The notes beneath the pieces are model-generated. The model was given only the letters and a program-made list of their open reading frames with translations. It did not search any database and was not told where the DNA came from. Positions 2,369 through 64,000 of a DNA stretch of 64,000 bases are shown here, one piece after another (within the stretch, counting starts at the first letter, position 1; the number at the start of each line of letters is the position of its first letter). Source of the stretch: Ectocarpus siliculosus (taxonomy: Eukaryota > Sar > Phaeophyceae > Ectocarpales > Ectocarpaceae); assembly GCA_000310025.1 (NCBI GenBank), contig FN648703.1:5649-69648 (forward strand), in the 5' to 3' direction. The position numbers and the translations under genes were made by a program.

Positions 2369-5319
2369 CGCTGTACCAACACCTGGCCTAGCTAGGCCCC
2401 ACTCGATATCGTGTTAATGCACTGCCGCCCTCAGCGGTCTGTGGTGTTGAGACTGGGGACTGTGTTATCCCAGGAACAGCTGATATAAAAGGACCATGTA
2501 GTGTATATATTCGTCTCGCGAGCCCCTCAGGCAAGCTGGTATTCGACACGCAAGCCCCTCAGGCAAGTGTCGAGAGCACACCGCCGTGTGCTCCCGGGGG
2601 CCCCGCACTTGGACCAGAACCGCACACATACCCTCACGCCCATACTTACAATACGCGTATCCCCCACAGAGGATGCACAGATCGGACTCATATCCAAGTA
2701 CCACAAACAAAGTACATTCTATCCTCCGGCTGCGGCGGGAGGCTATACCGGTCCCCACGGCCTCAGTCCCCAGTCACGCGTTATCTGTTTATTTTTTTGT
2801 CGTAAGCTGCATCCAGGGGATGGTGTGGTGGATTCTACAGCAGCAGCAATCAATCGGCGAAGGGTTGCACCTGAACGGTCGAAAGTTCGTCTACAGTACT
2901 ACTGTAGGGGATTGCTGACAGAACCAATCTCACAACGTCGTTTTCAAACAACAAGCAAGACGAGCTTCGCTGAGTGAGAGGCCAGGACTGCTGTCCAATT
3001 ACTGTAAAGACCGACTTTTGAACCGAATGGTGTGAGCGGAGAAAGCACACCACTCCATCCCAGGAAACCATGTTCTTGTTGTAGTACCTAACGCAGGAAG
3101 AACGAAGAGAGCCAACCCGGGAAAGTAAAAAAGTAACTGCTCCGCATACGGCGAAATGCTCACAAGAAGGGCAGGTGAAGACGGAGGGAGTCATTCATTA
3201 CACTCACGTACCAGGCGCGGCCGCCGGAGGCGCTGGAAGCGCCGGAGGTGGCCGCCGTTCGATCTTGTACTTCGACCACGAACGACTGTCGGGTTGTTGG
3301 CAATGCTGCGGCCGCGCAGGGTTGCCAGTAGCAGTGTCGCGGGGCTTCGGAGCGGCCGACGGGGCTGAAGAAGCGGTGGACATACATACATTCTTGCGTC
3401 AGAGAGCGTGGACTTCTAAAGGCAATCTCTAAGACTCTAAGGTGGGAGGTTGGGGACTTGTGTGTGAAGTTCAGCGAGATACAACAGCAGCAGCATTATC
3501 AAATTTATTTACGATCTGATTTCAATTCAGATCGGCTAATTGATTCCCGAGGTCGGGGCACGGAGGAATTGTCGGGACTTTTATTTATTTTTTCCTGGAG
3601 TTCAATGGGATGATGATGGTAATTTTGAAATTAGTGGGATGGTAATGGGAGGATGCTAGGTGGGATATAGGAGATTTTGAGTCCCATCGCCAATTATTCC
3701 ATCCCATCGGATAATAATCGTACCATCCCTTCCCAGCTAACTTCTCATGTCGCTCCTATCCCACCCACACTCCCACAAAGCGTATCCTCATCTCAAAGCC
3801 ACTGCTGCCGACAACATGACACCCACCATCCCATCTAAAGACCAGCCCGCCGGATATCATGTACAGTAGGTCTCACTCCCCCTCCCCCTCCCGCCGTCCG
3901 TAGCTATTCTGAAACATCAACATACCCACCCCCCGTTGCACCAGTTGGCACCCCCCCCCAGCCGCCTCCGACTCGGCGTACTGCGGTGCTGCTGCTGCTG
4001 CTGCGTGTGTGGCGGATGCGAAGCCACGCAGCGGAGCCAACTTTAGTGATGTATTGGCATGACTGTCGCTCTGTATTACATAGTCGGGTAGCATGCCAGG
4101 TAGTAGGTGCATCTCCCTGTCCTTGTTGTACGAAACATCGATGATGGGAATGATCAATGCCATGTCTTCTTTGGGTCGTCGCCGTCCAGCAGCTGTTGTT
4201 GGGATGACAAGTACAGGGGACTCGGCCAGGATAATACCTCGGGTTAATCTCTGTCCCTCCCTGGTCCCTGGGAACTTCTGGGGTGAATCTCTGTCCGTCC
4301 CCCCTGCTGGGGCGCCGCCTCTTTCGTGCAGTTCCGCCCAAAGCCAAGGCAAAATCACCCCACGGTATATACTCCAAGGATTCATTCCGTCGCACTACTT
4401 GAACATAGATAAGGTGGAGTTTTTTTTTTCGATTTTTGTTTTTCTCGCGCACGCTGCACACACTTTGTGTGAGACTGAATACGACAGCCTTTGGGCTGCC
4501 CCCGACCGCAAAAACGTTTCACCAACGGAACATGTACTCTCATACTTGAGCATTGGTCGTGATCGGATGAGTGTGGTGACGAGTTCTAGACATACATGCG
4601 GTATGTTGAGCAGCGCACGATTACGTATTACACAGAGCGGGAACCAACGGTTCGATATAGCCGCTGTACAGCACACACACGTATTGTGGCGAGTGTACAC
4701 GGCAGATCAGTGTGGACTTCGGTTCACGCACGTCTCGCATGTATGTGTTGTTACGGTCCGGGCGTTAGGTCGCGCGCCTGGGCCAGTTCGCGAGTTGGGG
4801 TTGGGTCAATCCGTGAAAACATGCGTGACAGCCACCAGCACAGGAGCATAGGAGCACGGGATTGCGTAGAGAGAACTGTTGTGTCTCCGCAATGTAAACA
4901 ACAACCAGCACCCTCAAAACGTCTTGTATGTATGAGCTATGCAGGAGGTCCGCACAATTGGTGGACGTCGTTAATCAGGCCATACAACGGGTACGCAAGG
5001 CCGTCCAGCCGTGAACATGCACGCATATCGTTTGCAGCACTGCTGCTGTAGCGGAGAGAACTTGCATTTTCCCCTGCTACGTGTCAACAGCAGAAAGACA
5101 ACGACCGCGGTCATCACGCAATACGCCGTGCCTCGCCTTTCTGTTCAAACGCGAAATGCCTAGAAAAGCTATATTTCGCAGTCATCAACTTGCTTCGACA
5201 AAAGCCATACCCAACGCACGTTTTCTCTCAGCCGGTGTGCTGTATGCAGGCCGCTAGCTCAGCGGACCCGCGCAGATTTTTCCATGAATTTTCTTCACAC
5301 GGGACCACCAACGGAACCG
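2369..5319. other. Non-coding stretch right of the Copia gag, up to the DIRS-type element
   Basis: No convincing gene. The Copia 5' LTR must start somewhere right of gag, but only one LTR could be present in this window, so its borders cannot be fixed by comparison. Short open frames here lack family motifs. A foldback-like sequence lies at 3607-3785 (listed separately). CAG/CTG runs occur at 3990-4005. The stretch ends where repeat A1 begins. Confidence 0.5.
3607..3785. repeat. Imperfect foldback (MITE-like) sequence
   Basis: The left half repeats GGGATGGTAATGGGAGG-like words and ends in GGTGGGATATAGGAG. The right half carries their complements, such as CTCCTATCCCACCCAC and CCATCCCATCGG. 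The arms are clearly related but imperfect, with small indels. No target duplication could be assigned. This resembles a decayed non-autonomous DNA element. Confidence 0.35.
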
Positions 5320-5542
5320 TGAAGATTCAGTACGTTTTTGAATCTGTGGTTTGTGGAGGCGTGTTGGAATTCGGAAAAGCGGGGATCGAAGAGAAATAGA
5401 GACGGCCTCGGTCTCAGAAAGTTTTTGTGCTCTCGCTGGGCGAGAGTCAACCAAGTGCATTTGAGAGAAGGAGAGGAGTGGCAGAGATGGCAGCTTTGAG
5501 GAGTAGCAAACGCGGGGTGCCGCCTAGGATTTGATCGATTTC
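5320..5542 (+). repeat. Split direct repeat A1 (left terminus)
   Basis: About 223 bases beginning TGAAGATTCAG and ending at GATCGATTTC, nearly identical to A2 with scattered substitutions and a 2-base indel near the end. It forms the left end of the element. The gag ATG (5546) lies four bases after its end, so A1 probably holds the promoter and leader. Confidence 0.9.
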
Positions 5543-5545
5543 GGG

Positions 5546-7478
5546 ATGGACGGCAATGATGGGCGACCGGCGAGCGCGAACGGCGCCGCGGGCGTCGCGG
5601 CGGCCAGTCAAGGCAACTCGGCGGACGGCAGTCCTCCAAGCTCGGCCGCCGGTGGCGGGGACGCCCAAAACAGGCAGCAGCAGCAGCAACAACATCAGGC
5701 AGCAGCAGCAACAGCGGCAGCAGGAGCAGCAGCAGGTCAGGTGCCGCAGCAGCAGCAGCAGCAGGATCTCCAGCATGGACACCCGCAGCAACAAAACGCC
5801 GGCGGTCCGGCGGCAGCAATTCCGCCGCGGCCGCCCATGATTTACGGAGCCCCCCAACCTCAGCTGATGCAACAGCAGCAGCAACAGCAGCAGCCGCAGC
5901 AACAGCCCCAGCAGCAGCAGCAGGGGGGCACTGGGAGTAATCCGAACCTCTTCTCGCTGTTACAACAGCTCGTGACTCAGGGCAGCCGCCAGCAACAACA
6001 GATTCGGTCTCTCCAGGAGGTGGTCGTAAATTTGACCGGCAACCGGCAACCCGCACAGGGCGCCGCGGCCCACAACAATGCCCAGGATGGCCTCGCCTAC
6101 AACAATAGTCAGTCAGTAATCCTCCCCCTGGTCCAAGCGCCGCCGCCGCCACCGCCGCCGCCGCCGCAGCAGCAGCAGCAACAACCTCACCAGCTGCAGC
6201 AGCAGCAGCAGCAACAACAACAACCTCACCAGCAGCAGCAGCAGCACCGGTAGCAGTCGCAGCCGCAACCGTTGCAACAACAGTATCAACACCAACAACT
6301 CCAGGCCTACCCCCACCAGCACTACCTCCAGTCCTCGTCGGCCGCGCCTCAGGGATACCAACAGCTCGCGAGCATCCCGGGGGGCGCGCCTGTATACAAT
6401 GCCCACCGGCTGAAAGAAGCCCAAAAGCTGGAGGGCCGCACGTGGGAAAAAGACGGCCAAGCGGCCCTGTACCTAATGCGAGGTGCCACCTTCTCGCCTG
6501 TCGTCATGACGGGGGGCGAGTTCGACCACATCATTCGTGACGTGGCCCACCCGCAACCGGGCCTGCACGCGCTGCTTACCTTCGGCGCCATCGACATTGC
6601 GGCGTTTTCGCCGACGCGCCCCCCGGAGGTAGCGGCGGTGACACGCACGTTCGACGTCATCTCGACACCTTCGTTCGCGTCCTGGAAGTTTTCATCAAGG
6701 ACGGCATGGCGGGCGCCTCGCCGGCCGGGCCGACCGAGTTGGCCTGTTTTTCCGGGAACTTTACAGGATCTCCGGGGACCTCCGCCGCTACACTTCCCGC
6801 CACTGCACTGAGTTCAGGGGCCGCGAAGCCGACGTCTTCGCCAGGTTCAAGCAAGACGCCAACCTCGATTGGGACGAGTTCGTCAGTCGTCTGACCACCG
6901 AAGCTAGGGCGCTCCGGCAGCGCAACACCCTCTCCCCTCCACCCCCCAACACGGTGGGGGCGATCCAAGTCCCGCAATTCTCACGGACGTTCATCCTGAT
7001 TGCGGAGGGTACGGCTTCTTCGATGGTGGGTCTCCTGCAGGGGGGTCTAGCCCGTCAGCAGCAGCCAAAAACGGCCGCCGCTAGCACCATGCGCAAAGCT
7101 ACTTCACAGGGTCAACCTGCCCGCACCCCTGCTGCTCCAGTCCCATACTCTTCCACGGCAGCCGCCAATGCGTTTGCACAGACCGTTGCCGCCTGGAACA
7201 CTCCCGACAACCAGTGCTTCTACACGTGGTCGGGCACGTCCTGCACACGCCCGCGGTGCGAGAAGGGGCACACCCAGCGGCACCCGTCACTCTTGCCTGC
7301 TGTCCCCCCCCCCCCCCCCCCTCCGCCCGCTCCGCCCGCTCGTGCCCCCCCTGCTCCGAGAGCGACACAAGCACCAGTCGCGAGGTACAGCCATGGAGGC
7401 GGCCGGGGAGGAGGAGCAACTGGAGGAGGAGGAGGTGGAGGGCGCGCGGGAGGAGGCCGTGGCGGTTCCAATCCGTGA
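5546..7478 (+). pseudogene. gag: DIRS-type Gag-like protein, Gln-rich, with CCCH zinc finger
   Basis: Starts at ATG 5546 (M-D-G-N-D-G-R-P). Gln-, Ala- and Pro-rich tracts fill the first 240 residues. An in-frame TAG at 6251-6253 (probably a CAG changed to TAG) interrupts them, and the frame resumes at once. A more complex region follows (HRLKEAQKLEGRTW, then TFGAIDIAAFSPTRPPEV). Around 6660-6740 the readable protein moves through two other phases (TFVRVLEVFIKDG, then LFFRELYRISGDLRRY and WDEFVSRLTTEARALRQRN). This indicates two small frameshifts. Near the end, 7215-7271 encodes C-X8-C-X4-C-X3-H, a CCCH-type finger, followed by Pro- and Gly/Arg-rich tails. A TGA closes the phase at 7476-7478, but the same phase continues into the spacer ORF. 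By position this is the capsid/nucleic-acid-binding protein. Confidence 0.7.
7215..7271 (+). other. CCCH zinc-finger motif in Gag
   Basis: The phase encodes Cys, eight residues, Cys, four residues, Cys, three residues, His (CFYTWSGTSC, then TRPRCEKGH). This CX8CX4CX3H spacing fits CCCH RNA-binding fingers rather than the CX2CX4HX4C knuckle seen in the Copia Gag of this window. It is the obvious candidate RNA-contact module of this Gag and lies 430 bases upstream of the hairpin array. Confidence 0.6.
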
Positions 7479-9155
7479 CGGTGCGGGCCCCACTTTCACG
7501 AGGTGGGGCCGACAAGGGGGGGTGGCGAGCTTGGCACGGGAGCGAACGCCTTTGCGGACAGCAGAAGGACAGTAGCGAGTGTGGGAGTTCCCCTTCCCGG
7601 GTCGGTGGCACCCGCTGTGTTTTACGGTGAGAGCATGAGTTGCGAACCTGTAATTTCCCATACTGTCAACCGTTTGAATTCGTTTTCACCCTGCATAGGG
7701 GCGGACACCACTCACGCGAAAACGTCAAAAACAGTAGCTACGGGGGCGGACACCCCCGGTGCTCAGTACGGGTCATATAACACACAAGCGGAGGACACCG
7801 CACTGGTGATAGATAAGTCACAACTATTGGCGGACACCAATTATGCGAATATTGACACACACCGGGCGGACACCCGGTGTGAACATGCATTACCCTCACT
7901 CCCGCAAACGGTGGACGCCATTCCCGCGAAAAACACACTAACGGAAAACCTATCACTCCCGCAAACGGTGGACGCCGTTCCCGCGGAAAACACACTGACG
8001 GAAAACCCATTGGCGGACACCAATAGCGGGACCAATTACTGCTCTGCCTCGTTCACCACGAAGACTGTGGTGGACGCCACACGTGCTGAACAATGCAATG
8101 CAGTCGCCTCGGGGGAGGACACCCCGGGCGAATATACGTGGCCCCGCGGCACGCAAGCAGTGGACGCCGCGAGCGTTGTCGGTAAACAAAAAATACTGGC
8201 GGACACCAGTAGTGTGCAATATGAACATGCATTACCCTCACTCCCGCAAACGGTGGACGCCGTTCCCGCGGAAAACACACTAAGGGAAAACCTATTGGCG
8301 GACACCAATAGCGGCATCAATTACTGCTCTGCCTTGTACACCACGAAGACTGTGGCGGACACCACACGTGCCGAACAATGCAATGCAGTCGTCTCGGGGG
8401 AGGACACCCCGGGCGAATATAATTGGCCCCGCGGTACGCAAGCGGTGGACGCCGCGAGCGTTGTCGGTACACAAAAAATACTGGCGGACACCAGTAGTGT
8501 GCAGAAGGACATACACGGGGCGGACACCCCGCGTAAGAATTTGTCTGTCACACAGCCCCGATTGGCGGACACCATTCGCGGGAACGACACGGAATTGGCG
8601 GACACCATGACCGTGTCTACAGCTACCCCGGGGGCGGACACCCCGGGGGATGCACCGTCGGCATGTAGGGCACTAGCGGCGGACACTGCTAGGGCCGCTG
8701 ACATCACAAAAGTAATGCGACAGGGTTGCGGGTCGAATTCAGCGATTTCTCACTTTGGGGCGGGGAAAGAACCTCCGGCCCTAGAGAGCCCAAAAAAGAC
8801 AACCTTTTCGAGAAACTTAAAAACTCTGACCGATAGACTCGAGGCACAGAGAAGCATGCTCGCGTCAAGCCTACAGTCACTAGACGATAAACAATGTATC
8901 ATTCGGAAGATGGCGGATATTGGTAGTGATTTGGTAAAGCTCCACGATGGAAGGCTGGGAGACGTCGCGAGGGGAATCGGCGGCACTTTGGTGTCACCGC
9001 CGTTGGACGTGAGCGACGTCAAGCAGTGTTTCGGAGAGGAGAAGGGTTTCCCGGGTATCGATGACCTCATTGAGATAGTCGGTGAAGGAGCCCCTGCCCC
9101 CACTCTAGTCTCGCAGCAAAATCTCAAGAAAGTTGGCATACGGCAACCACCGTAG
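7479..9155 (+). CDS. Gag-Pol spacer ORF carrying the ADT repeats and the start of Pol
   Basis: Open in the phase of the Gag C-terminus after the TGA at 7476, with an inner ATG at 7635. The first two thirds (7690-8700) are low-complexity protein in which [Ala/Val/Glu]-Asp-[Thr/Ala] recurs 23 times, most often every 15 codons. The last 130 residues look folded or coiled (NLKTLTDRLEAQRSM, ADIGSDLVKLHDGRLGDVAR, FPGIDDLIEIVGEG) and lead into RT, whose frame takes over in the overlap 9109-9155. I recognise no enzyme in it. The repeats sit exactly on nucleic-acid palindromes (separate entry), so the protein repeat may be secondary to RNA or DNA structure. A segment of roughly 300 bases (about 7880-8220 and 8221-8500) is duplicated. 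Confidence 0.6.
   Translation, partial: RCGPHFHEVGPTRGGGELGTGANAFADSRRTVASVGVPLPGSVAPAVFYGESMSCEPVISHTVNRLNSFSPCIGADTTHAKTSKTVATGADTPGAQYGSYNTQAEDTALVIDKSQLLADTNYANIDTHRADTRCEHALPSLPQTVDAIPAKNTLTENLSLPQTVDAVPAENTLTENPLADTNSGTNYCSASFTTKTVVDATRAEQCNAVASGEDTPGEYTWPRGTQAVDAASVVGKQKILADTSSVQYEHALPSLPQTVDAVPAENTLRENLLADTNSGINYCSALYTTKTVADTTRAEQCNAVVSGEDTPGEYNWPRGTQAVDAASVVGTQKILADTSSVQKDIHGADTPRKNLSVTQPRLADTIRGNDTELADTMTVSTATPGADTPGDAPSACRALAADTARAADITKVMRQGCGSNSAISHFGAGKEPPALESPKKTTFSRNLKTLTDRLEAQRSMLASSLQSLDDKQCIIRKMADIGSDLVKLHDGRLGDVARGIGGTLVSPPLDVSDVKQCFGEEKGFPGIDDLIEIVGEGAPAPTLVSQQNLKKVGIRQPP
7698..8692 (+). repeat. Array of 23 in-phase GGAC-loop palindromes with variable arms
   Basis: Each unit has a six-base centre CGGACA, TGGACG or AGGACA, mostly closed by GG on the left and CC on the right and extended by arms that differ between units. 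Centres start at 7702, 7747, 7792, 7831, 7867, 7912, 7969, 8014, 8071, 8116, 8161, 8200, 8254, 8299, 8356, 8401, 8446, 8485, 8521, 8566, 8599, 8635 and 8680. All are 1 modulo 3, and spacings are multiples of three with 45 commonest (11 of 22). Arm pairs include CACACCGGG/CCCGGTGTG (7867), TACTGG/CCAGTA (8200, 8485), CTATTGG/CCAATAG (8299), TGTGG/CCACA (8071, 8356), AACGG/CCGTT (7969, 8254), GCGG/CCGC (7792, 8446) and CTAGCGG/CTGCTAG (8680). The copy at 8599 has an extra outer stem GACACGG/CCGTGTC. The first copy (7702) is weak. Copies at 7912, 8161, 8521, 8566 and 8635 carry one arm mismatch. Confidence 0.85.
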
Positions 9156-10927
9156 CGTAGACGATCACCAAACACAAGTGTGGGAAAAACTATGCGACGA
9201 TGTCAAGCGTAACAGGTGTATCGTCCTGAGAAAGGCGAACGCATCGGACGTACGTGGGATTAGAGTAGCTCCGTTGGGAGCGGTCCCAGGGAAAAAAGTG
9301 AGGATCATCAACGACTTCTCCTTTGACCCAAGCACAAGCAAGGGGTCAAAAGGTGGGCTCAACAAAGATACCATCATATCTGGAGTACCACGTTGCCTGT
9401 GCGGCGAAGCACTACCAGCTTTCCTCGAGGAGCTCACTAGCCTACGAGTAAGATGGCCTGACAAGAGAATTCTCGCAGCCAAGGCTGATGTCACCTCAGC
9501 GTTCAGAAATGTTAGGATATCACCAGATCATGCTCACAAGTTTTGCTACGTGATAGGAGACGTGCTAGTAGCAGATCTACGGCTGACATTTGGCTGGGCA
9601 ACGCCACCAGGATTGTGGGGTGTGTTAGCCTCCGCTGCAGAGCACTCGCACCGCAACACGTCCCTCGCGAACGCCCGACTACTACCAGAAGGAATCGCAA
9701 TGATGTCTCACGTCAAAAATGAAACCCCCTTTGGGAAAAAGGCACCCCAACCCCAATTCCATCGTCGGCAGGCGTACAACCGCATAGAGGCGGGGGACCC
9801 GCGGACGATTTCTTGGCCAGGGTCTACGTTGACGATTTCTTGCTCACGAAGGTCCAGCATGACCTCGCTGACGAATCGGCACTCGTTGCTTCCGCCTCGC
9901 TAGCTTCGGATCATGTCAGACTGTTTGGTAAGGGAGAAGCTGGAGAAACCCCCATTCTCGCCCCCAAAAAGAGCACCGACTGGGACACGGTCATAGAGGC
10001 CCTGGGGTACACAATAGACACGCATGATGACAGAATTGCAACTACTCCCGAACGGGTGAGCGCGATTCGGAACACCCTAGAGACAGCTTGGCCCCACGAT
10101 AGGAAGAAGGCCAGTGTTCAAGAAGTCCTCAGCATTGCAGGAAAACTTTGGAACCTTACCTATGTCATCAGGGCTGGCAGGTACTTTGTGTGGCAACTGC
10201 TCCGCCTATCGGGTCTGCATACGCAAGCCAGTCGACACACGCGGTCAAGACGTCTAGTGGACTTGGGTAGAGAGTTCCACGGCGTATCGCTTTCTGGAAG
10301 TGGGCTCTCAACCAGCCCCTGGCGCTTCGAGGGGAGTCCCTCAGCGCATCGTTCCTACTCCACGTTAAACGAGCACCATCACGCCTCTACCTCTCAGACG
10401 CTAGCTTCACAGCGATTGGCGGCTACTGCCCCGAACTAAAGACTTTCTGGAGATACACGATCGAACCTTCGTTGTCTCCGGAGCTCAAGCGCAAGGCGCA
10501 GGTGAAGGAGACGTCAGACATTACGATCAATCTGTTAGAACTCACGGGCATGTTCATGACGGCGTGGGTAGTCCAAATGATCTTGAAAGACAGACCCGTA
10601 GAAGAAGGGCAGTCGGCGTTGATGCGTGGGGACAACGTGTCAGCCGTCAGCTGGACTAACAGGTGTGGGGGGTCGCGTGACAGGCGCGCTAGCCTCAGAA
10701 TGAGACTCATGGGTAGGATGGAAATTTCTTGCGGCTGGTGCCACGTGGCCACGCACATCCCTGGTCGAAAGAACACACTCGCGGACGGGATCTCACGTTG
10801 GGAAGAAAACGAGATCGCCACCAACGTAAGAATGCTCACGAAAGACTCAGGGTGGACACAGCAGGGTATCGGGGAAGGGGGACGAGCGTTGCTCAGCATT
10901 ATTCTCCAAAAGAAATTACCGAAATAA
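9109..10927 (+). pseudogene. Reverse transcriptase and RNase H of the DIRS-type element
   Basis: RT copies element RNA to DNA and RNase H removes the template. The RT phase opens at 9109, overlapping the spacer ORF by 47 bases. Motifs in order: VRIINDFSF, a GGLNKDTI block, KADVTSAFRNVRISP (catalytic Asp), FGWATPPGLWGV, then VYVDDFLL at 9822-9842 with the catalytic Asp pair at 9831-9836. The YVDD motif lies in another phase, so a single-base shift occurred near 9740, by the CCCCAACCCC tract. Connection residues (ASVQEVLSIAGKLWNL) follow. A further shift near 10280 leads to RNase H: Asp in SDAS (10397), Glu in NLLEL (10538), Asp in RGDN (10631) and Asp in LADGISR (10784), all four expected catalytic acids. 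The frame ends at a TAA at 10925. Domains are complete but the frame is broken twice. Confidence 0.88.
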
Positions 10928-11342
10928 AGTCTGGACGACTCGGTATGGGACATTATGGTCCAAGGAACAGAAAATATCTGACACGGCAAAGAGATCGAAG
11001 GTAGGGCAGTAGGACACCGCTCTGCGTTCTGGTCGATCAACGAATTATCAAAGGAATTGAGATATCGAGAAGCTGGAGCGGTGGACACGCATCATACTCA
11101 CGGTTTCATGACGCCTTGATAAAAACGGATAGCCGGGGGAGGCAGAGTTGGTTTGGACGACCAAGTTTTCTGTTCTCCCTTCAAGCCAAGTTGGGGCTAT
11201 CCCGGGTTCGGCATGAATTTGTCGTACCTTAGAAAGGAACCTCGAAATGCACGCATTCCTTACGCTGTGAAAACCCGGTGACCGAATATCAGGAACACAG
11301 GGAAAGGATGGCCGGGGAGGCACGAGCGTCGAGGGGGAGCGG
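10928..11342 (+). other. Linker between RNase H and recombinase, no domain recognised
   Basis: About 400 bases inside the element. DIRS1- and PAT-type elements carry a DNA N6-methyltransferase near here. I see no DPPY or FxGxG motif in any frame. This favours an Ngaro-like content, or a lost domain. Confidence 0.45.
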
Positions 11343-12322
11343 TTGGTCAACGCACTCACCTTCGGGTCGTTGGGAAGCGGTACCAATAAGGTGTATCAAA
11401 GGATGTGGAACACTCGAGCAGGGGCGGGTTCGGGCCCGTGGCTCAGCGAGAGCGATGGGGTGGAAAGTGCGGTGCGTGAGTTGTCTGTGTTCATGGCCTG
11501 CCGGTGTTTCGGTCACAAGAACCAGAGTCAGACTATTCGCGGGTATCTGTCAGTCATCAAGTACTTCCATAAGATGCACGCAGGATGGGAGTTGCCTACT
11601 TCGCATTTCCAGATCCTTGCCATGTTGAAGACCTCCACGCCAATACGCAGACGAAGCCTAAGATTAGGAATCCACATTCGTGGGACATGCTACAAGCTGG
11701 AAAGGCCGTGGTCGAACATTCGAGAGAATCAGGAAAGTTGATTTGGTGTGGACTTGCCCTCTCGTACCTGCTGATGTGCCGAGCTTCAGAAATCTGGGCG
11801 GACGACTCGGGGCTCGTGCACTCAGATTTTTGCCTGACTAGAGGAGACCTGGGTTTCTTTTGCGGTCCGGTAAGGGTTGCATGGGCAGACAGACGGCAGG
11901 CTAGCCGAGTGGAAGTCACGTTCAGAGCATCAAAAGCAGATCAGAAACGTTTGGGAGCAACGGTCACTAGATCAGGAGAAGCGTTGAAGGTGTTACTCGA
12001 TCTGTTAGATCTGCACCCCGAGCTCGGGAGTCATGCGCCGTTGATGCAATCGTGGACACAAGACAGGTGGAAGGTTATTTCGAGGGCAGAGGCATCGAGA
12101 CACTTCAGGTTACTCGTGAGCGTGGCGGGTAGAGACCCGCAGAAGTATGCGTTGCATTCAGGGAGGATCGGGGGGGCCACGCACCTAGCAAGTATGGGGG
12201 CGTCGGTAATCCAGATTCAGAGAGCCGGGAGGTGGAAATCATCGGCTTTTATGGTGTACGTTAGGGCTGGGGGTGAAGGAGCGAAGTTCGTGTCTCAGGC
12301 CCTTACGGAACCCGAGGAGTGA
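11343..12322 (+). pseudogene. Tyrosine recombinase (YR) of the DIRS-type element
   Basis: Integrates the circular DNA intermediate. The N-terminal part (11343 to about 11630) reads like a SAM-like core-binding domain (TIRGYLSVIKYFHKMHAGW). The catalytic part is in another phase from about 11600 on, so one single-base shift separates them. Catalytic residues are all present: Arg in LLMCRASEIW (11780), Lys in RASKADQ, His and Arg in HSGRIGGAT (12155, 12164), Trp in the His/Trp position of AGRWKSS (12233) and the nucleophile Tyr in FMVYVR (12257). The frame stops with TGA at 12320, 50 bases before B1. The HxxR and GRW...YVR pattern is characteristic of DIRS, Ngaro and PAT recombinases. No true ATG is obvious because the start region is shifted. 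Confidence 0.88.
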
Positions 12323-12371
12323 CCAGGGAGCGGTTTCGGAGGAGTAGGTCATCGGACATGCCTAATGGAGT

Positions 12372-12570
12372 AAGATATGTTTAGGCCAGAGGTCGAAACA
12401 ATAGTAATGATAGTAGGGCAATCTTGGGAAGTTTGCAACGGGTTAGTCCGATTAGAAAACGTTGGGCGCAAGACGGCATTGTACCTGCGCTCTCAATTTG
12501 TTTCATTTGTCTTGGTTTTTCTTTGGTTGACTACAGAAAAATAATCCAGAATTCTTGAGCAAACATAAAC
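12372..12570 (+). repeat. Split direct repeat B1
   Basis: About 199 bases from AAGATATGTTTAG to AAACATAAAC, matching B2 with roughly a dozen differences. It abuts A2 with one intervening base (12571). Confidence 0.9.
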
Positions 12571-12571
12571 A

Positions 12572-12796
12572 TGAAGATTCAGTATGTTTTTGAATCTGTT
12601 GTTTGTGGAGGCGTGTTGGAATTCGGAAAAGCGGGGATCGAAGAGAAATAGAGACAGCCTCGGTATCAGAAAGTTTTTGTGCTCTCGCTGGGCGAGAGTC
12701 AAGCAAGTGCATTTGAGAGAAGGAGAGAAGTAGCAGAGATAGCAGCTTTGAGGAGTAGCAAACACGGAGTGCCGCCTAGGATTTTTGATCGATTTC
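12572..12796 (+). repeat. Split direct repeat A2
   Basis: About 225 bases, a copy of A1 placed between B1 and B2. It differs from A1 by scattered substitutions and a 2-base insertion (ATTTTTGATC against ATTTGATC). The gag start that follows A1 is absent here. A unique 98-base spacer (12797-12894) follows. Confidence 0.9.
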
Positions 12797-12894
12797 CCAC
12801 CCACCCACACCTATCGCTCAAGAGAGGGGGGAGCATGGGGGGGTCTAGTCGGTCGACGACTAGAGGTACCAAGTGTAGGTAGTTTATTATGAGC

Positions 12895-13092
12895 AAGATA
12901 TGTTTAGACCAGAGGCCGAAACAACAGTAATGATAGTAGGGCAATCTTGGGATGTTTGCACCGGGTTAGTCCGATAAGAAAACGTTGGGAGCAAGACGGC
13001 ATTTTACCTGCGCTCTCAATTTGTTTCATTTGTCTTGGTTTTTCTTTGGTTGCCTGAGAAAAATAATCCAGAATTCTTGAGCAAACATAAAC
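12895..13092 (+). repeat. Split direct repeat B2 (right terminus)
   Basis: Copy of B1 that ends in AAACATAAAC at 13092, after which similarity stops. This defines the right end of the element. No target-site duplication is visible between the flanks of A1 and B2, as expected for recombinase-mediated insertion. Confidence 0.88.
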
Positions 13093-15805
13093 CCAACAAT
13101 GGTGTTGTTGTGGTCATTTATTTGTGTTGTAACGTTTCTGACCGCCGTACGAACGATGGGAACGATGTTGTTACTCGACATCAAGCCACGTACGAACGAT
13201 GGGAAATATGTTGTCACTCAACGTCAAGCCACACATTCTTCACTTCAAACTCTAGACAGTCAGAATTAATTGTACAGTTGGTTGCCGCGTGTCACCATTA
13301 CTGTCATCGCCACTCACCAGGGCGTTGTTTAGCGTCAATCGGACCTTTGAACTTTGCAACAGGCACTACTCACACTGCTGTACATGTAGATATTTCAGTC
13401 CTCTTCGCGGTATTGTTTGGGTTATTATTCTGCATGTTTTTATCGGATCCTGCAGCCTCCACCGTCATGGGATGGTTCTTACAGTAAATAGCATCTCCAC
13501 ACGATAATATCTCCTTGGGCAAGCCTTCATCACCTTAGCATACAGGTACCCGTGCGTTCTCACCACACATTACGCGGTGCCACGCCTTTCCACTCTCTCA
13601 CCCACGTACCGGAACAAATTCTCATCAGCTTTCCAACTTCTTCGCCGTCTTACTTTTTCTCTCCCTTTCCACCGTCGTCGATTACTCTCGCTTGCGATTC
13701 GGCCCCCCGCGCCCCCTGGGGGCGCGGGGGCCGTTCAGTACCCGAGTACTAAATAATCGCTTCTGTTCAGAGAGGTTAACGTCGGTCGAAACGAAGAAAG
13801 TAGTAGTGGTTTGAGTCTGAGAATACCGACAAAAACTGTCCCTAGAAAAACTGTTCGTGTTACATGGGTTCTCCGCAGTCAGAAACACGATGACGATGGA
13901 ACCATACATAGCACACAAACCGTGGTCGAGACGCTACCGCCATCCAGCGTAACCTTGCGAGGATTGCGTCACTCCGAGGCCACGCATTGGAGACCTCTTC
14001 ACCGTGTGTGGCGTTGGAGATGGTTGGGATTGGTTATTATGAACTCAGCGACTAACATGTTACCGTTCCCCCCTCTCCTATCGAAACGTCAACATGGTGC
14101 CATCGTCTTGCACTGGCCAACGAAAATTATAGTTCATGCAACTTCTATAGATCTTGTCGCGAACCACCATCAAGCTCCGTGCTCCATCCAACCCACCTAA
14201 GCTGGCACCCTCAAGTACAACATGGTCATATGTATATTACCCGAGGAAGTCCGACGTTTCGTGTCCAATCAATCTCCAATGCAGCACCTACCGACCAGCC
14301 CCCTTGACATCGACCAAATCATCCCACCCTAAGAAAAACTACACATGAACACTACACATGAACTTCCTTCCCACCAACACTGCACTGGCTCCTACCCCGG
14401 CTGCTTTTGTCGCGAAACCAAGACCAAACGATCGCAACATTGAACCGACACCATTCGACGCGCGATCGTGGAACGTTATTTCCCAACTTTATACATGCGA
14501 CAGATGAAGAGTGCATGCACTTCGGCTTTCTTGCGTCTACATGTCGCACAAATGAAAAACGCCGAAGCAAACCTCACAGACATTGCCCCATTTCAACAGC
14601 AAAACCTCTGAATTCTAGCATACTCGAGACTAAAATTATTGAGAAAACGTCCCTGCTGACCCAGGTCTTACCAATCCATCACCCTGAAAATATTAGTATA
14701 CCACATGACACCGAGCCCGACGCGACTTCACAGCCCTCTAAACCTTAACGCTGGGTTTTCAAGCTGCCGTACACAAACCCAGGTGTTATTAGCCCATCCG
14801 AAGCAAAGGCCGCCAACGGATACCATTGTTCTAGGGCTTGGATCCCCATACCGGAAAAAGAAAACCAAGCAGCAAAACTTGACCGTCTGTTTGTCATCGA
14901 GGATCTCTTGAGAGCATATTTGCCGTTCTTTGGTTGTGTGCACAAATTTTCACAGCAACAGCAACGTTCGGATCAACATGAATGTAGCACGGTTACATGC
15001 TGATCCAGCACCAACAACCGCACCAGGATGCAGTTACCAAACCGGCAAGAAGCAGATCTCAGAATCCGCTACGCTGATGTTTTTCTTGGACCCACCACAC
15101 TTACCTGAGACTACGCTGGTTGTACGGCAGCACCTATCGTGCTATCTACAGACATACATACGCATACCTGAACACCAAACGCACCACCAACACAAGCAAA
15201 ATCTGATGGCGACCTCTCCGGAACCCCCCCAACACGAAGCATGTTCGAGCTGTGCTTCTGTCATACACCCCCGGCCACACCCAACAACACAGCCTGCGTT
15301 GGCGCTACCGCCAAGACAACACCAATCTCCAAAAGGTTCACAGGAAAGCGTACCCGACTCACAGATATGACAAAGGCTGCAAAGGCTAAAAAACAAAGCA
15401 ACACACGTTTCGTTTTGACTTCCCACCTCCGGCAGCCGATGTAAACAACGCTTTTTTGTTTGGCCATCTGTCTCCTCTATCGCGGTTTCCCAAAATCGTT
15501 TGATCCCTCTTGCTCTAACCCCCACCAATGAACGAAACTATAAACCGCTCCATCAAACATGCGACCCAACAACAACTACAAAATCAACCGCATGGAGAGG
15601 GCAGCAGTGTTAAAAGGCCTCCGTTGCTCTGTCTCAGAGCATTTCTGCACTTGGCCTGTCCAGCACGGCTGTAGCACACTAGCCTTTAACCAAGTCGGCA
15701 AAGCGAGCGTCACCAAGCTCAAGAAAACGCTGTCTTCATTGCAGGCCTCCCGAAGTTCGGTAGCATATCAGGAAGCTTTCTACATGCTTTGACCATTCGG
15801 TTGTA
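13093..15805. other. Intergenic stretch between the DIRS-type element and the Sec14-like gene
   Basis: No coding segment with family motifs or convincing splice pattern. A GC palindrome sits at 13701-13732. At 15774-15834 there is a near-exact tandem duplication of about 37 bases (ATCAGGAAGCTTTCTACATG-type) that copies the 3' tip of the Sec14-like coding sequence just past its stop. Confidence 0.5.
13701..13732. other. GC-rich palindrome
   Basis: GGCCCCCCGCGCCCCC followed by T and GGGGGCGCGGGGGCC: a 15-bp stem with one bulged C and almost no loop. It follows a C/T-rich tract. Function unknown. Confidence 0.7.
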
Positions 15806-26910: not shown

Positions 26911-27475
26911 CACAGGTGGAGGTCGAACCCCCTTGGGGACTTTTCGGCAAGGGGGGGGGGGGGTCATCGGCAAGGTCGAGCCCCTGAAGAGTCCGTTGGG
27001 TTGTCCAACCTCCGTCCCTTCACCAACCTTGGCAACCCCTGACAAAAGAACGGTTTGGCAAACTCATTGCCTAGGATGTGCTTGCCAAGCTCGTTCGCGT
27101 ACGTGAGATTGGCAAGGCTAGTTATAGCCAGCGTGCGATTGGCGATTGGCAAGGTCGTTTTCGAACTTGAGATTGGCAAGGCTAGTTATAGCCAGCGTGC
27201 GATTGGCGATTGGCAAGGTCGTTTTCGAACTTGAGATTGGCAACGCTAGTTCGGGAACGTGTGATTGGCAAGGCTCATTGCCTACGATGTGCTTGCCAAG
27301 CTTGTTCGCGAACATGAGATTGGCAAGGCTAGTTCGCGAGCGTGCGATTGGCGATTGGCGAGCTTGTTCGCGAAAGTGGGATTGCAAGCTCGACCCGGAT
27401 ATTGGCAAGGCTCATTGCCTACGATGTGTTTGGCAAGGCTAGTTCGCGAGCGTGAGATTGCCAAGGTGCTCTGAG
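26911..27475 (+). repeat. GGTCGAACCCCC module and (GATTGGCAAGGCTAGTTCG)-type minisatellite
   Basis: CACAGGTGGAGGTCGAACCC at 26911 opens a module that recurs inverted near 38340. From 27056 on, units of about 37 bases built on ATTGGCAAGGCTAGTTCGCG repeat with variations. A 64-base block (about 27106-27170) is exactly doubled at 27170-27234. Many units carry TTCGCGAA-type palindromes and GGCAAG/CTTGCC pairs, so the array can fold. Confidence 0.75.
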
Positions 27476-61950: not shown

Positions 61951-64000
61951 TTACGGTTCCAAATATTTGGAAGCCAGCAAGATTCATTTCAAACGCGCTG
62001 CACGGCAACTTTCCAAATAAATCTCGCCGCGTGTGATGGCGAGTGGGCATGCGCCTATAATCCCACCACGCACTCCACAGACAACGTCCCCCCACGCGCG
62101 ACACCACGGGAGGGCCCAACATAGATAGGGTTAGTGGTCACCAAGGGCAAATCCCGGCTGGATGCAGCGAACAGGGCGATTAACGGCGCTGCTGTAGGTC
62201 CAGCCGCTTTCGGTTTTCCGTGCTCGGCAGGCCGCCAGACAACACCTCAGGCCAAGGCGAGCAAGGGCGAAGCAGCAAGATGTTGAGAGCATGTCCTCCT
62301 TGCTGGATATCGTCAGCCAGGTTGTTGAAAGGAGAAGCCATCATGTCTCGGGCCTCGAGGTTGCAGCAGCAGGTGTGTGAGAAGCTACTTCTGAAGTAGT
62401 TTTCTGTCTCTCTCGTCATCTGATTATGTATGTCAGCCTGGTGTGTCCGCCTGGTGTGCCGCCCGGTGTGTGTGTGTGTGTGTGTCGCTCTCGTCCCGGC
62501 TCTCTTGTCTCGCCGCACCACTCGCGCACCCGCAATATCACCCCAACTCTTCGTCTCGCACTGCATATCGACGCATGTGTCTGGTGGTATTCTTGGTTCA
62601 AAAACCTGCTGTACCCACATGTGTGCTTTTCTTGTATCATGGCCTCTGACTCTGGCTGTACGTTACATTTCGAAGCATGCTGGTGCCACTGCGCTGCTGT
62701 TACCCACTGCGTCGGTGTACAGCAGTAGTCTGCCTGGGCACATACTACTTCTGCGTCGCCGAAACAACTGCTTATCTCCGAAACCTGCTGCAATCTGTCA
62801 GTCACGTCGGCAGCATTGGTAAATCGTTTTTTTTGGTAATCTGACATGAATACTATGTACACAATTTGTACACCATATTTTTATATTTTCGCAGTCATGC
62901 GTTGTGCGTGTTATCCACAGCTGCAGCCATTCTGCCAGCGTGCGATCCCTGTGAGACAGGAGGCGGATTGTTTGGTACAGCAGTACAATGTATTCGTCAG
63001 AATACCCTCCACCACCCTGCGGCTATTGTCGTCACCAAATGTGCGTGGCCACGAAGCGAGAAAAATACTGGTAGGTTTGATCCTAGACCTACCGCTCTCT
63101 GCTAGCCCCGCACCCGCCAATTTTCGAGGTGCGAATGCTACAACATTTGACTTGAGCGTCCCGCAACGTGGCCACTTTTTTTACGCCTTCAAGGCGAAAA
63201 AGCCGCTGCAGGGGGCGATCGCACGTAATGCAGCCGGAAGAGCAGATTAAGAAATGGTGTCTTCCTCGCGTGACCGAGTGGACGGCTGGTAGAGGAAAGG
63301 CCTTCCTGAGAGCACAGGACTCAGCTGGCGCGAAAGCAGAGCTCGACAACGAGGATACAGCGCGGAGAAACGGGGTACCGACTACGGCATTGTGGAGGAC
63401 TTCAAGAACGAAATAGTGAAGGTGATCTCCGAACGCCAGAATCGATTCAGGCAGCCAACCCCTTTGATTTTTCTTCTCGCCACAGAACGAGCTTGCACGA
63501 TGATATCGTAATCCTGTTCTCCGCTGTCATCGGTAGGAAGGAACCGCCTTTTATGAGCTATCCAACGCCCCCATCATAGTTGTGTGCCATCTGCCAACGT
63601 TGTTGCTACCTTGTCTCGGAGTGCTTGCGCAAAAAAAAAATCGTTATACAGCAGCAGTATTGCCGTGCAATTTCCGCCCACCCGGTCCCCCCCCGATCGC
63701 CCTTCTCGCTTATTTTTGCGACGGTTAACATGTCGCAGGTTGACGGAGCGGTGGAGGAATATCTCGCAGCATGAGGGAGGGATGAGAGCGAGAGGGAATT
63801 GGGTGGGGATATGGGGGGGCTCGTTGCTGTGGGGGTGATCCAGGTGGCGCACCTGCTTCATCGCCAAATATTTCTGGGACACATTCGTTTAGCACAACGT
63901 GTTTTCGATACCTTCGGGCTTTGGCGTCCCTTGCATTCGTACTTGGTTATGCATTTCGATGTGGTTCCTGGAAGGCCGAAGCACTTGCCATTCTAGGTTT
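61951..64000. other. Right end of the window
   Basis: Mostly non-coding: a GT run (62466-62486), CTG/CAG words and poly-A/T tracts. At 63315-63450 a possible exon (plus) reads SWRESRARQRGYSAEKRG and DYGIVEDFKNEIVKVISER, but its borders are unclear. Confidence 0.3.

Follow-up and report, generated by a model that had tools for sequence, protein, structure and literature searches.

Between the gag and reverse transcriptase (RT) genes of a retrotransposon of Ectocarpus siliculosus, the motif N-GGAC-R recurs 23 times in 1 kb, a count first made from the bare sequence and confirmed here, between arms that are largely complementary to each other at a site and differ from site to site. What has kept the arms paired, and what might a fixed loop on free stems be for? 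The answer given below draws on the window (the whole 64-kb stretch of DNA analysed), on the other copies of the element in the genome and on its relatives.

The element and its pol-side frame

The element, which spans approximately positions 5310-13092 of the window, is a retrotransposon of the DIRS order, an assignment made by the sequence-only reading and borne out by its split direct repeats (Table 1), which are of the Ngaro/PAT type. These enclose gag, an RT region that we take to include RNase H, and a recombinase ORF, which lies at the expected place and matches Phage_integrase (PF00589) only weakly (E 0.018, below the Pfam cut-off). PAT elements have an A1-[ORFs]-B1A2B2 plan. The window copy has its repeats in this order (A1-[ORFs]-B1-A2-B2), a plan described for Ngaro in the accessible text of PMC8547959. 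In its split direct repeats and gag, and in its putative RT-RH and tyrosine recombinase, the element resembles the Ngaro/PAT-like DIRS-order elements that the accessible parts of two papers describe from Ectocarpus (PMC12477816) and Cafeteria (PMC8547959). The RT region has 150 homologous matches in the 189-Mb genome, homologues elsewhere and no Pfam hit. Two Ectocarpus sp. CCAP 1310/34 proteins are 93-96% identical to the array/pol frame across 13% of it, which places the host in Ectocarpus or near it. A search of viral contigs found no relatives of the element. Rfam cmscan of 5300-13100 at E values up to 1 returned three matches outside the array, all of them below the gathering score. In the window copy, which is degraded, gag and RT are split over several frames, and the translation of gag contains a CX8CX4CX3H motif (CFYTWSGTSCTRPRCEKGH), which we take, as did the sequence-only reading, to be a CCCH-type Gag finger. 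Elsewhere in the window, a 565-aa ORF on the minus strand (671-2368) has two CCHC zinc-knuckle motifs (CGRCGHVGHTAIIC, CYICGEPGHTGRNC) and is presumably the Gag of another retroelement.

Gag is in frame before a UGA-C in the window copy, and the frame behind this stop holds the array. A UGA-C at the start of the pol-side frame, with a GC-rich hairpin 7 nt further on, is found in 29 of the 45 sequences compared, which are the window and 44 loci. The loci that have it are L031-L037, L039, L042-L046, L048, L050, L051, L053-L059, L061-L063, L066 and L068; L030 has another stop and motif search found none in 15. The stems that follow the UGA differ between families yet pair (CCCCAC/GTGGGG and CTCTGCC/GGCAGRG, by eye; that of the window was also folded), and in copies such as L043 and L053 the array frame runs unbroken into RT. 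On this sequence pattern, the UGA-C and hairpin probably direct programmed stop-codon readthrough into pol. The array thus lies between gag and RT, as originally placed, but in an open frame continuous with gag after the UGA rather than in an untranslated spacer.

Table 1. Coordinates of the element and of its array in the window
Feature	Position	Strand	Remarks
Split direct repeat A1	5310..5532	+	94% to 12562-12784
Gag CX8CX4CX3H finger	7215..7271	+	From translation; candidate loop reader
Gag stop, UGA then C	7476..7478	+	In frame with array ORF; proposed readthrough site
Open frame containing array, N-terminal to RT	7479..9155	+	From translation
Hairpin 7 nt after UGA	7486..7510	+	By eye; fold -21.8 kcal/mol, z -2.55
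Array of 23 hairpins, loop N-GGAC-R	7698..8692	+	Sequence, pair counts, codon shuffles, covariation
Longest perfect hairpin	7858..7881	+	9 pairs around CGGACA; RNA fold -17.7 kcal/mol, z -3.98
285-bp tandem duplication within array	7953..8503	+	Copies 7953-8218 and 8238-8503, 94% alike
Last hairpin, CTAGCGG/CTGCTAG	8673..8692	+	Seven pairs including one G.U; RNA fold z -3.29
Reverse transcriptase / presumed RNase H region	9133..10924	+	Several frames in window copy; homologues
Tyrosine recombinase region	11343..12322	+	Overlapping ORFs; weak PF00589 match
Split direct repeat B1	12368..12570	+	Matched parts 12368-12532 and 12535-12570
Split direct repeat A2	12562..12784	+
Split direct repeat B2	12891..13092	+	Parts 12891-13055 and 13057-13092; element end near here

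Arms, loop and loop edge

The GGAC cores start at 7703, 7748, 7793, 7832, 7868, 7913, 7970, 8015, 8072, 8117, 8162 and 8201 in the first part of the array and at 8255, 8300, 8357, 8402, 8447, 8486, 8522, 8567, 8600, 8636 and 8681 in the second. They share the sense strand and a single frame, at spacings of 33-57 nt that are always a multiple of 3. Positions 7600-8750 contain 25 GGAC, two of which (8029 and 8507) fall outside the set, and no GTCC. At least four perfect Watson-Crick pairs flank N-GGAC-N at 17 of these 25, and at none of the 220 GGAC and 220 GTCC found elsewhere in the 64-kb window. Codon-preserving shuffles of 7692-8699, the check proposed together with the sequence-only reading, fall far short of 17 such hairpins, with a mean of 1.97 (s.d. 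1.28) and a maximum of 8 in 2000. Arms of up to nine pairs do occur, as that reading had stated, and many stems have only 4-5 perfect pairs. By eye, the stems at 8447 (ACGC-AA-GCGG/CCGC-GA-GCGT) and 8600 (GACACGG-AAT-TGG/CCA-TGA-CCGTGTC) look longer, each with a symmetric internal loop; 8590-8618, a segment without most of the outer stem, did not form the hairpin when folded alone (z 0.11). Folding of the whole array produces some of the local hairpins and omits others.

Because a 57-bp tandem duplication and the 285-bp one have copied seven sites, the sites are not independent, and covariation was counted on the 18 distinct 26-base hairpins that remain (about 16 site lineages), with six pairs each and the 3' letters dealt anew in 500 shuffles. 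The covariation score is 0.553 against 0.157 for dealt letters, a value reached in 0 of 500 shuffles, and sliding the partner by 1-3 columns reduces it to 0.07-0.15. Paired cells amount to 83.3% (61.2% shuffled) and cells with a two-sided change to 26 (8.5 shuffled), again with 0 of 500 shuffles reaching either value; no excess was found in how many pairs change on both sides (4 vs 3.7, 366/500) or in further pair types (13 vs 11.2, 113/500). Fifteen sources gave 252 sites, 125 of them unique, and these 125 were compared with a control in which right arms were dealt among sites. Watson-Crick pairs at offsets 3, 4, 5 and 6 number 113, 103, 84 and 56, compared with 44, 41, 41 and 25.5 dealt; the excess is absent at offset 7 (45 vs 47.7) and weak at offsets 8-10 (z 3.4-4.2). 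The covariation of the arms that was claimed from the sequence lies well above both the dealt-arm and the slid controls. The accompanying figure of at least eight arm families is close to what we count, seven fully Watson-Crick classes plus two with one G.U over the inner four pairs of the 18 hairpins, but these families had been taken as independent and the sites are not.

The bases at the loop edge are coupled. Among the 125 unique sites the edge pair is C.A in 84, U.G in 22, A.A in 15, U-A in three and C-G in one, counts obtained with a search pattern in which the 3' base had to be A or G. The C.A+ and U.G wobbles are isosteric. A change from U.G to C.A on unchanged arms separates 8072 from 8357 and, by eye, also 8162/8447 from the copy on contig C25; a U-A edge is seen in contig C55. 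At site 8522, the fourth pair is A-T, G.T or G-C depending on the copy. As the edge coupling is strand-symmetric, it supports a folded strand and does not favour RNA over DNA.

In the coding frame, the Asp codon within the loop is GAC at all 23 sites (26 GAC and two GAT in the whole array, six of each in the following 450 nt). It is preceded by GCG, GTG or GAG (Ala, Val or Glu), always with G as third base, and followed by ACC or GCC except for one ACT, whose T gives a G.U pair. Synonymous positions are thus fixed and replacement positions variable, the opposite of what selection on the protein produces. Across the genome GG-N-GGAC-R-CC is unenriched (2210 forward and 2244 reverse, compared with 3064 and 3236 for the reversed pattern), by which we rejected a dispersed host repeat motif. 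Kissing between GGAC and GUCC loops was likewise set aside, since no hairpin with this geometry and at least four pairs is centred on GTCC anywhere in the window. Two other repeats were seen in the window: a TGTCCGCCTGGTG-like tandem repeat at 62431-62471 that resembles the reverse of the array core and has no GTCC hairpin with at least four pairs, and tandem repeats of GATTGGCAAGGCTAGTT-type units at 27082-27384, with periods of 28-64 and inverted-looking words such as GGCTAGTTATAGCC.

Genomic copies and sister families

We collected 40 stretches upstream of RT homologues (L030-L069, one of them mostly N) and four shorter ones (L070-L073). In 12 near copies (93-96% identical, including the window) a Watson-Crick pair is the most frequent state at all 23 sites for offset 1, at 22 (plus one G.U) for offset 2, at 23 for offset 3, at 20 (plus one G.U, with two unpaired) for offset 4 and at 15 for offset 5; the mismatches seen in the window copy at 7703, 7913 and 8162 occur in it alone. 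The 23 non-majority states at majority-paired positions in these copies are all one-sided (6 G.U, 7 A.C and 10 other), so that copies lose pairs at random and without correction. Substitutions number 213/6851 in linkers, 33/2513 in arms, 15/1004 in GGAC and 7/502 at edges, or 3.1% per base for linkers as against 1.3-1.5% for the other three classes, in copies that share ancestry and with outer stems counted among the linkers. Divergent copies are partly decayed, with at least four perfect pairs at 4 of 6 core sites on C55 (L049), 4 of 8 on C25 (L026) and 2 of 2 on C16 (L028). L026 also has longer stems with a 2x2 AA/GA internal loop, and swapped GA/AA at another site. Taken together, selection on the hairpin array is well supported: pairing was, on the evidence of the aligned copies, preserved in the line from which they descend.

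The sequence-only reading would have been overturned by related elements with the ADT protein core and no complementary arms. The divergent copies on C55, C25 and C16 retain pairing in part, as above, and two proteins with ADT repeats that are known from protein sequence alone, P0001 and its 82% relative P0005, fit at the residue level. With the pattern [AVE]D[TAN], which omits the D-P sites of P0005 and the sites of P0001 that lack Asp, the residues two before and two after Asp are compatible with codons that pair at 12 of 16 sites in P0001 (6.0 permuted, p 0.006, and 0.006 with wobble) and 11 of 16 in P0005 (6.0 permuted, p 0.023, or 0.013 with wobble). The P0001 value comes from a longer stretch with one extra site outside the array, seven sites alone giving p 0.003-0.005, and the two proteins, being related to each other, are not independent lines. 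Arm pairing in the elements that encode them would fit these residues.

A sister family (12 loci examined; 48-64% RT identity, nine of them 60-64%) has a different hairpin array at the same place. Its units are CCCC/GGGG (45), CCCT/AGGG (56) and CCAATA/TATTGG (49), together with 39 CTAGTG/CACTAG hairpins whose loops are GGAA, GAAA or GTAA, and AGAC and AGAA flank the hairpins. Pairing is kept in variants such as CCGGCG/CGCTGG and broken in others. L043, where the hairpins make up a 120-bp tandem repeat in 5.8 copies, contains 10 perfect palindromes compared with 2.9 in codon shuffles (maximum 8 of 400), while L052 shows no excess (2 vs 2.2). The residue-level test is not significant in this family (P0012, 11/12 vs 9.0, p 0.20; Ectocarpus units, 14/28 vs 11.3, p 0.11). 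A third array type may exist in P0006, a related protein of 1134 aa, where a DPSGRQNFPHGKNRKEILV-like unit recurs about 13 times in the corresponding position ahead of RT.

Hairpins are not in excess of codon shuffles in the long spacers of the third-clade copies L053 (7 vs 7.4) and L058 (8 vs 6.5) or of L068 (2 vs 5.2), an indication that not all relatives need such an array. In deeper relatives, with about 40% RT identity, no array was seen by eye in four regions, where palindromes have no common loop or flank; L070-L072 have a shorter spacer, and three of four have a CX8CX5CX3H finger. The array thus appears to be derived and restricted to part of the clade.

RGAC is predicted to be unpaired in both arrays (0.68 vs 0.42 and 0.83 vs 0.53) and mostly paired in L053 and L058 (0.28 and 0.22 vs 0.42). 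Its counts barely exceed those of codon shuffles, at 27 vs 21.6 (maximum 29) and, in the sister family, whose count comes from a tandem repeat, 37 vs 31.9 (maximum 37). As the word was chosen after the data had been seen, and its counts are only slightly above shuffles, it is a lead only. We hold it possible, though rather doubtful, that in sister brown-algal families the pol readthrough segment holds clustered, fast-evolving arrays for RNA display, with RGAC exposed on tens of hairpins, in the loop in one family and at the stem foot in the other, a modular multivalent Gag-RNA code that would be rebuilt while the recognised word stays unchanged.

Candidate functions of the array

With 23 repeats of a fixed loop on free stems along one strand, the array has the logic of a multivalent loop-binding site. 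Our tentative preference, which falls somewhat short of a probable assignment, is that the element's Gag recognises the clustered hairpins for packaging, likeliest in genomic RNA; as a single function for the array, we infer, the Gag packaging code proposed by the sequence-only reading serves best. Each unit would be a stem of free sequence closed by a wobble-type edge pair (C.A, U.G or A.A) and topped by the invariant GGAC loop, the stem merely presenting the loop and the loop being read by a protein, most plausibly Gag through its putative CCCH-type finger. By binding many loops per RNA, Gag could select or condense that RNA for a virus-like particle, and placement within the pol frame would ensure that full-length RNA carries the array at little cost in protein constraint.

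Stem-loops read by coat protein on one RNA are described, in the parts available of PMC7612645, PMC3593212 and PMC4751978, for hepatitis B virus core, with shared -RGAG- loops, for satellite tobacco necrosis virus and for phage MS2. The array has the repeated stem-loops, common loop motif and free stems of the hepatitis B virus signals. Unlike the signals of those viruses, its sites, known from sequence alone, lie together within 1 kb of a retrotransposon, about 45 nt apart in one frame and with covarying stems, and no N-GGAC-N hairpin with at least four perfect pairs occurs in the window outside 7600-8750. The likeness to dispersed packaging signals drawn at first does not hold on this point, the sites being confined to the pol frame behind the conserved UGA-C. 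In the accessible text of the respective sources, some two dozen copies of NC bind the HIV-1 leader (PMC7395439) and the Ty1 packaging/dimerisation domain is a structured leader RNA recognised by Gag (PMC5454406). Recognition of structured RNA by Gag, if it applies to the array, would be shared with retroviral psi and Ty1, whereas the array is one unit repeated 23 times inside the pol frame.

Psi and Ty1 hairpins are few, individually distinct and near the 5' end. CsrB/RsmZ-type RNAs, which are bacterial and noncoding, also carry repeated GGA-loop hairpins on free stems and titrate one protein; the array is similar in this respect, without any claim of homology, but lies in the coding frame of a eukaryotic element. 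Multi-site packaging signals are themselves debated, since the sites of many viruses are weak and difficult to distinguish from random occurrences. In the main text of PMC12477816, PMC8547959 and the DIRS1 overview PMC3266345, as far as accessible, the word hairpin occurs 0 times, and among the matches listed in a literature search on DIRS/Ngaro elements and retrotransposon hairpin arrays, which covered titles and abstract starts and few subscription papers, no such array is described.

Any loop-binding protein would be suited by a fixed loop on free stems, and the reader could be a host protein or modification system, such as an m6A writer or reader or a loop-binding regulator, with the array serving as a decoy, export or stability element. 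GGAC is the typical core of m6A sites and GGACA matches their consensus; moreover, the loop core being unenriched genome-wide, a host reader might meet this form mainly in the element. GGACG, which is outside the m6A consensus, occupies 5 of 22 core sites in the window, however, and the sister family has AGAC outside its stems instead, and we regard a host reader as unlikely.

An effect on translation is more improbable. Ribosome slowing or spacing behind the UGA readthrough, which would tune the Gag:Gag-Pol ratio or Pol folding, accords with an array open in frame directly downstream of the conserved UGA-C and hairpin, but slowing requires no conserved loop sequence, stems of 4-5 perfect pairs are many, and L053, L058 and L068 share the UGA-C arrangement without a hairpin excess.

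We give a similarly small chance to a role at the DNA level, in which single-stranded cDNA or cruciforms would provide second-strand start, recombinase or condensation sites. The pairing statistics are nearly strand-symmetric, as are the folding z-scores (for array windows of the window copy, sense strand -1.4 to -4.4 and opposite strand -0.9 to -4.4; 0.1 and -0.6 for one window of L036, a copy that has no open frame and is absent from the codon-shuffle results), and we rejected the latter as a strand indicator. At the site equivalent to 8636, L038 and L041 have the hairpin inverted (GGGGTGTCCGCCCCC), an apparent arm-mediated flip of the loop in two copies, which indicates that DNA-level events act on the palindromes. 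In lox/FRT-type sites, however, the arms are conserved and the spacer varies; the array is the reverse of this, as the sequence-only reading had recognised, and it lies mid-element, far from the split repeats. The mostly GNRA loops of the 39 CTAGTG units on the sense strand and the purine-purine 2x2 internal loop, also on the sense strand, point away from DNA but are suggestive only. An excess of G.U over A.C at offsets 2-4 of the 125 unique sites (18 vs 5) was dropped as proof of RNA, the non-majority states having 6 and 7. This near-equality and the symmetric edge coupling are compatible with either RNA or single-stranded DNA.

That the palindromes arose by mutation and have no function, tandem duplication and templated quasi-palindrome correction keeping the arms complementary, seems very improbable to us: the duplications and the loop inversion show that such processes happen, but they predict no loop conservation, no edge coupling and no slowdown in the arms (1.3% vs 3.1% observed), and the one-sided non-majority states show no two-sided correction. 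Least credible of all is that an ADT protein repeat is selected for its amino acids, with palindromes as a by-product of codon bias, since, although the sites are in frame and A/V/E-D-T/A recurs, codon-preserving shuffles do not approach the observed hairpins and synonymous positions are fixed beside variable replacement positions.

Packaging in DIRS-order elements is undescribed as far as our literature search shows. Here one element offers tens of fixed-loop sites with covarying stems, in coding sequence, in many genomic copies and with a different array in a sister family. The array is a clear case of nucleic-acid structure dictating protein sequence and, if recognition by Gag is its function, would allow retroelement Gag-RNA recognition to be tested on many equivalent sites.
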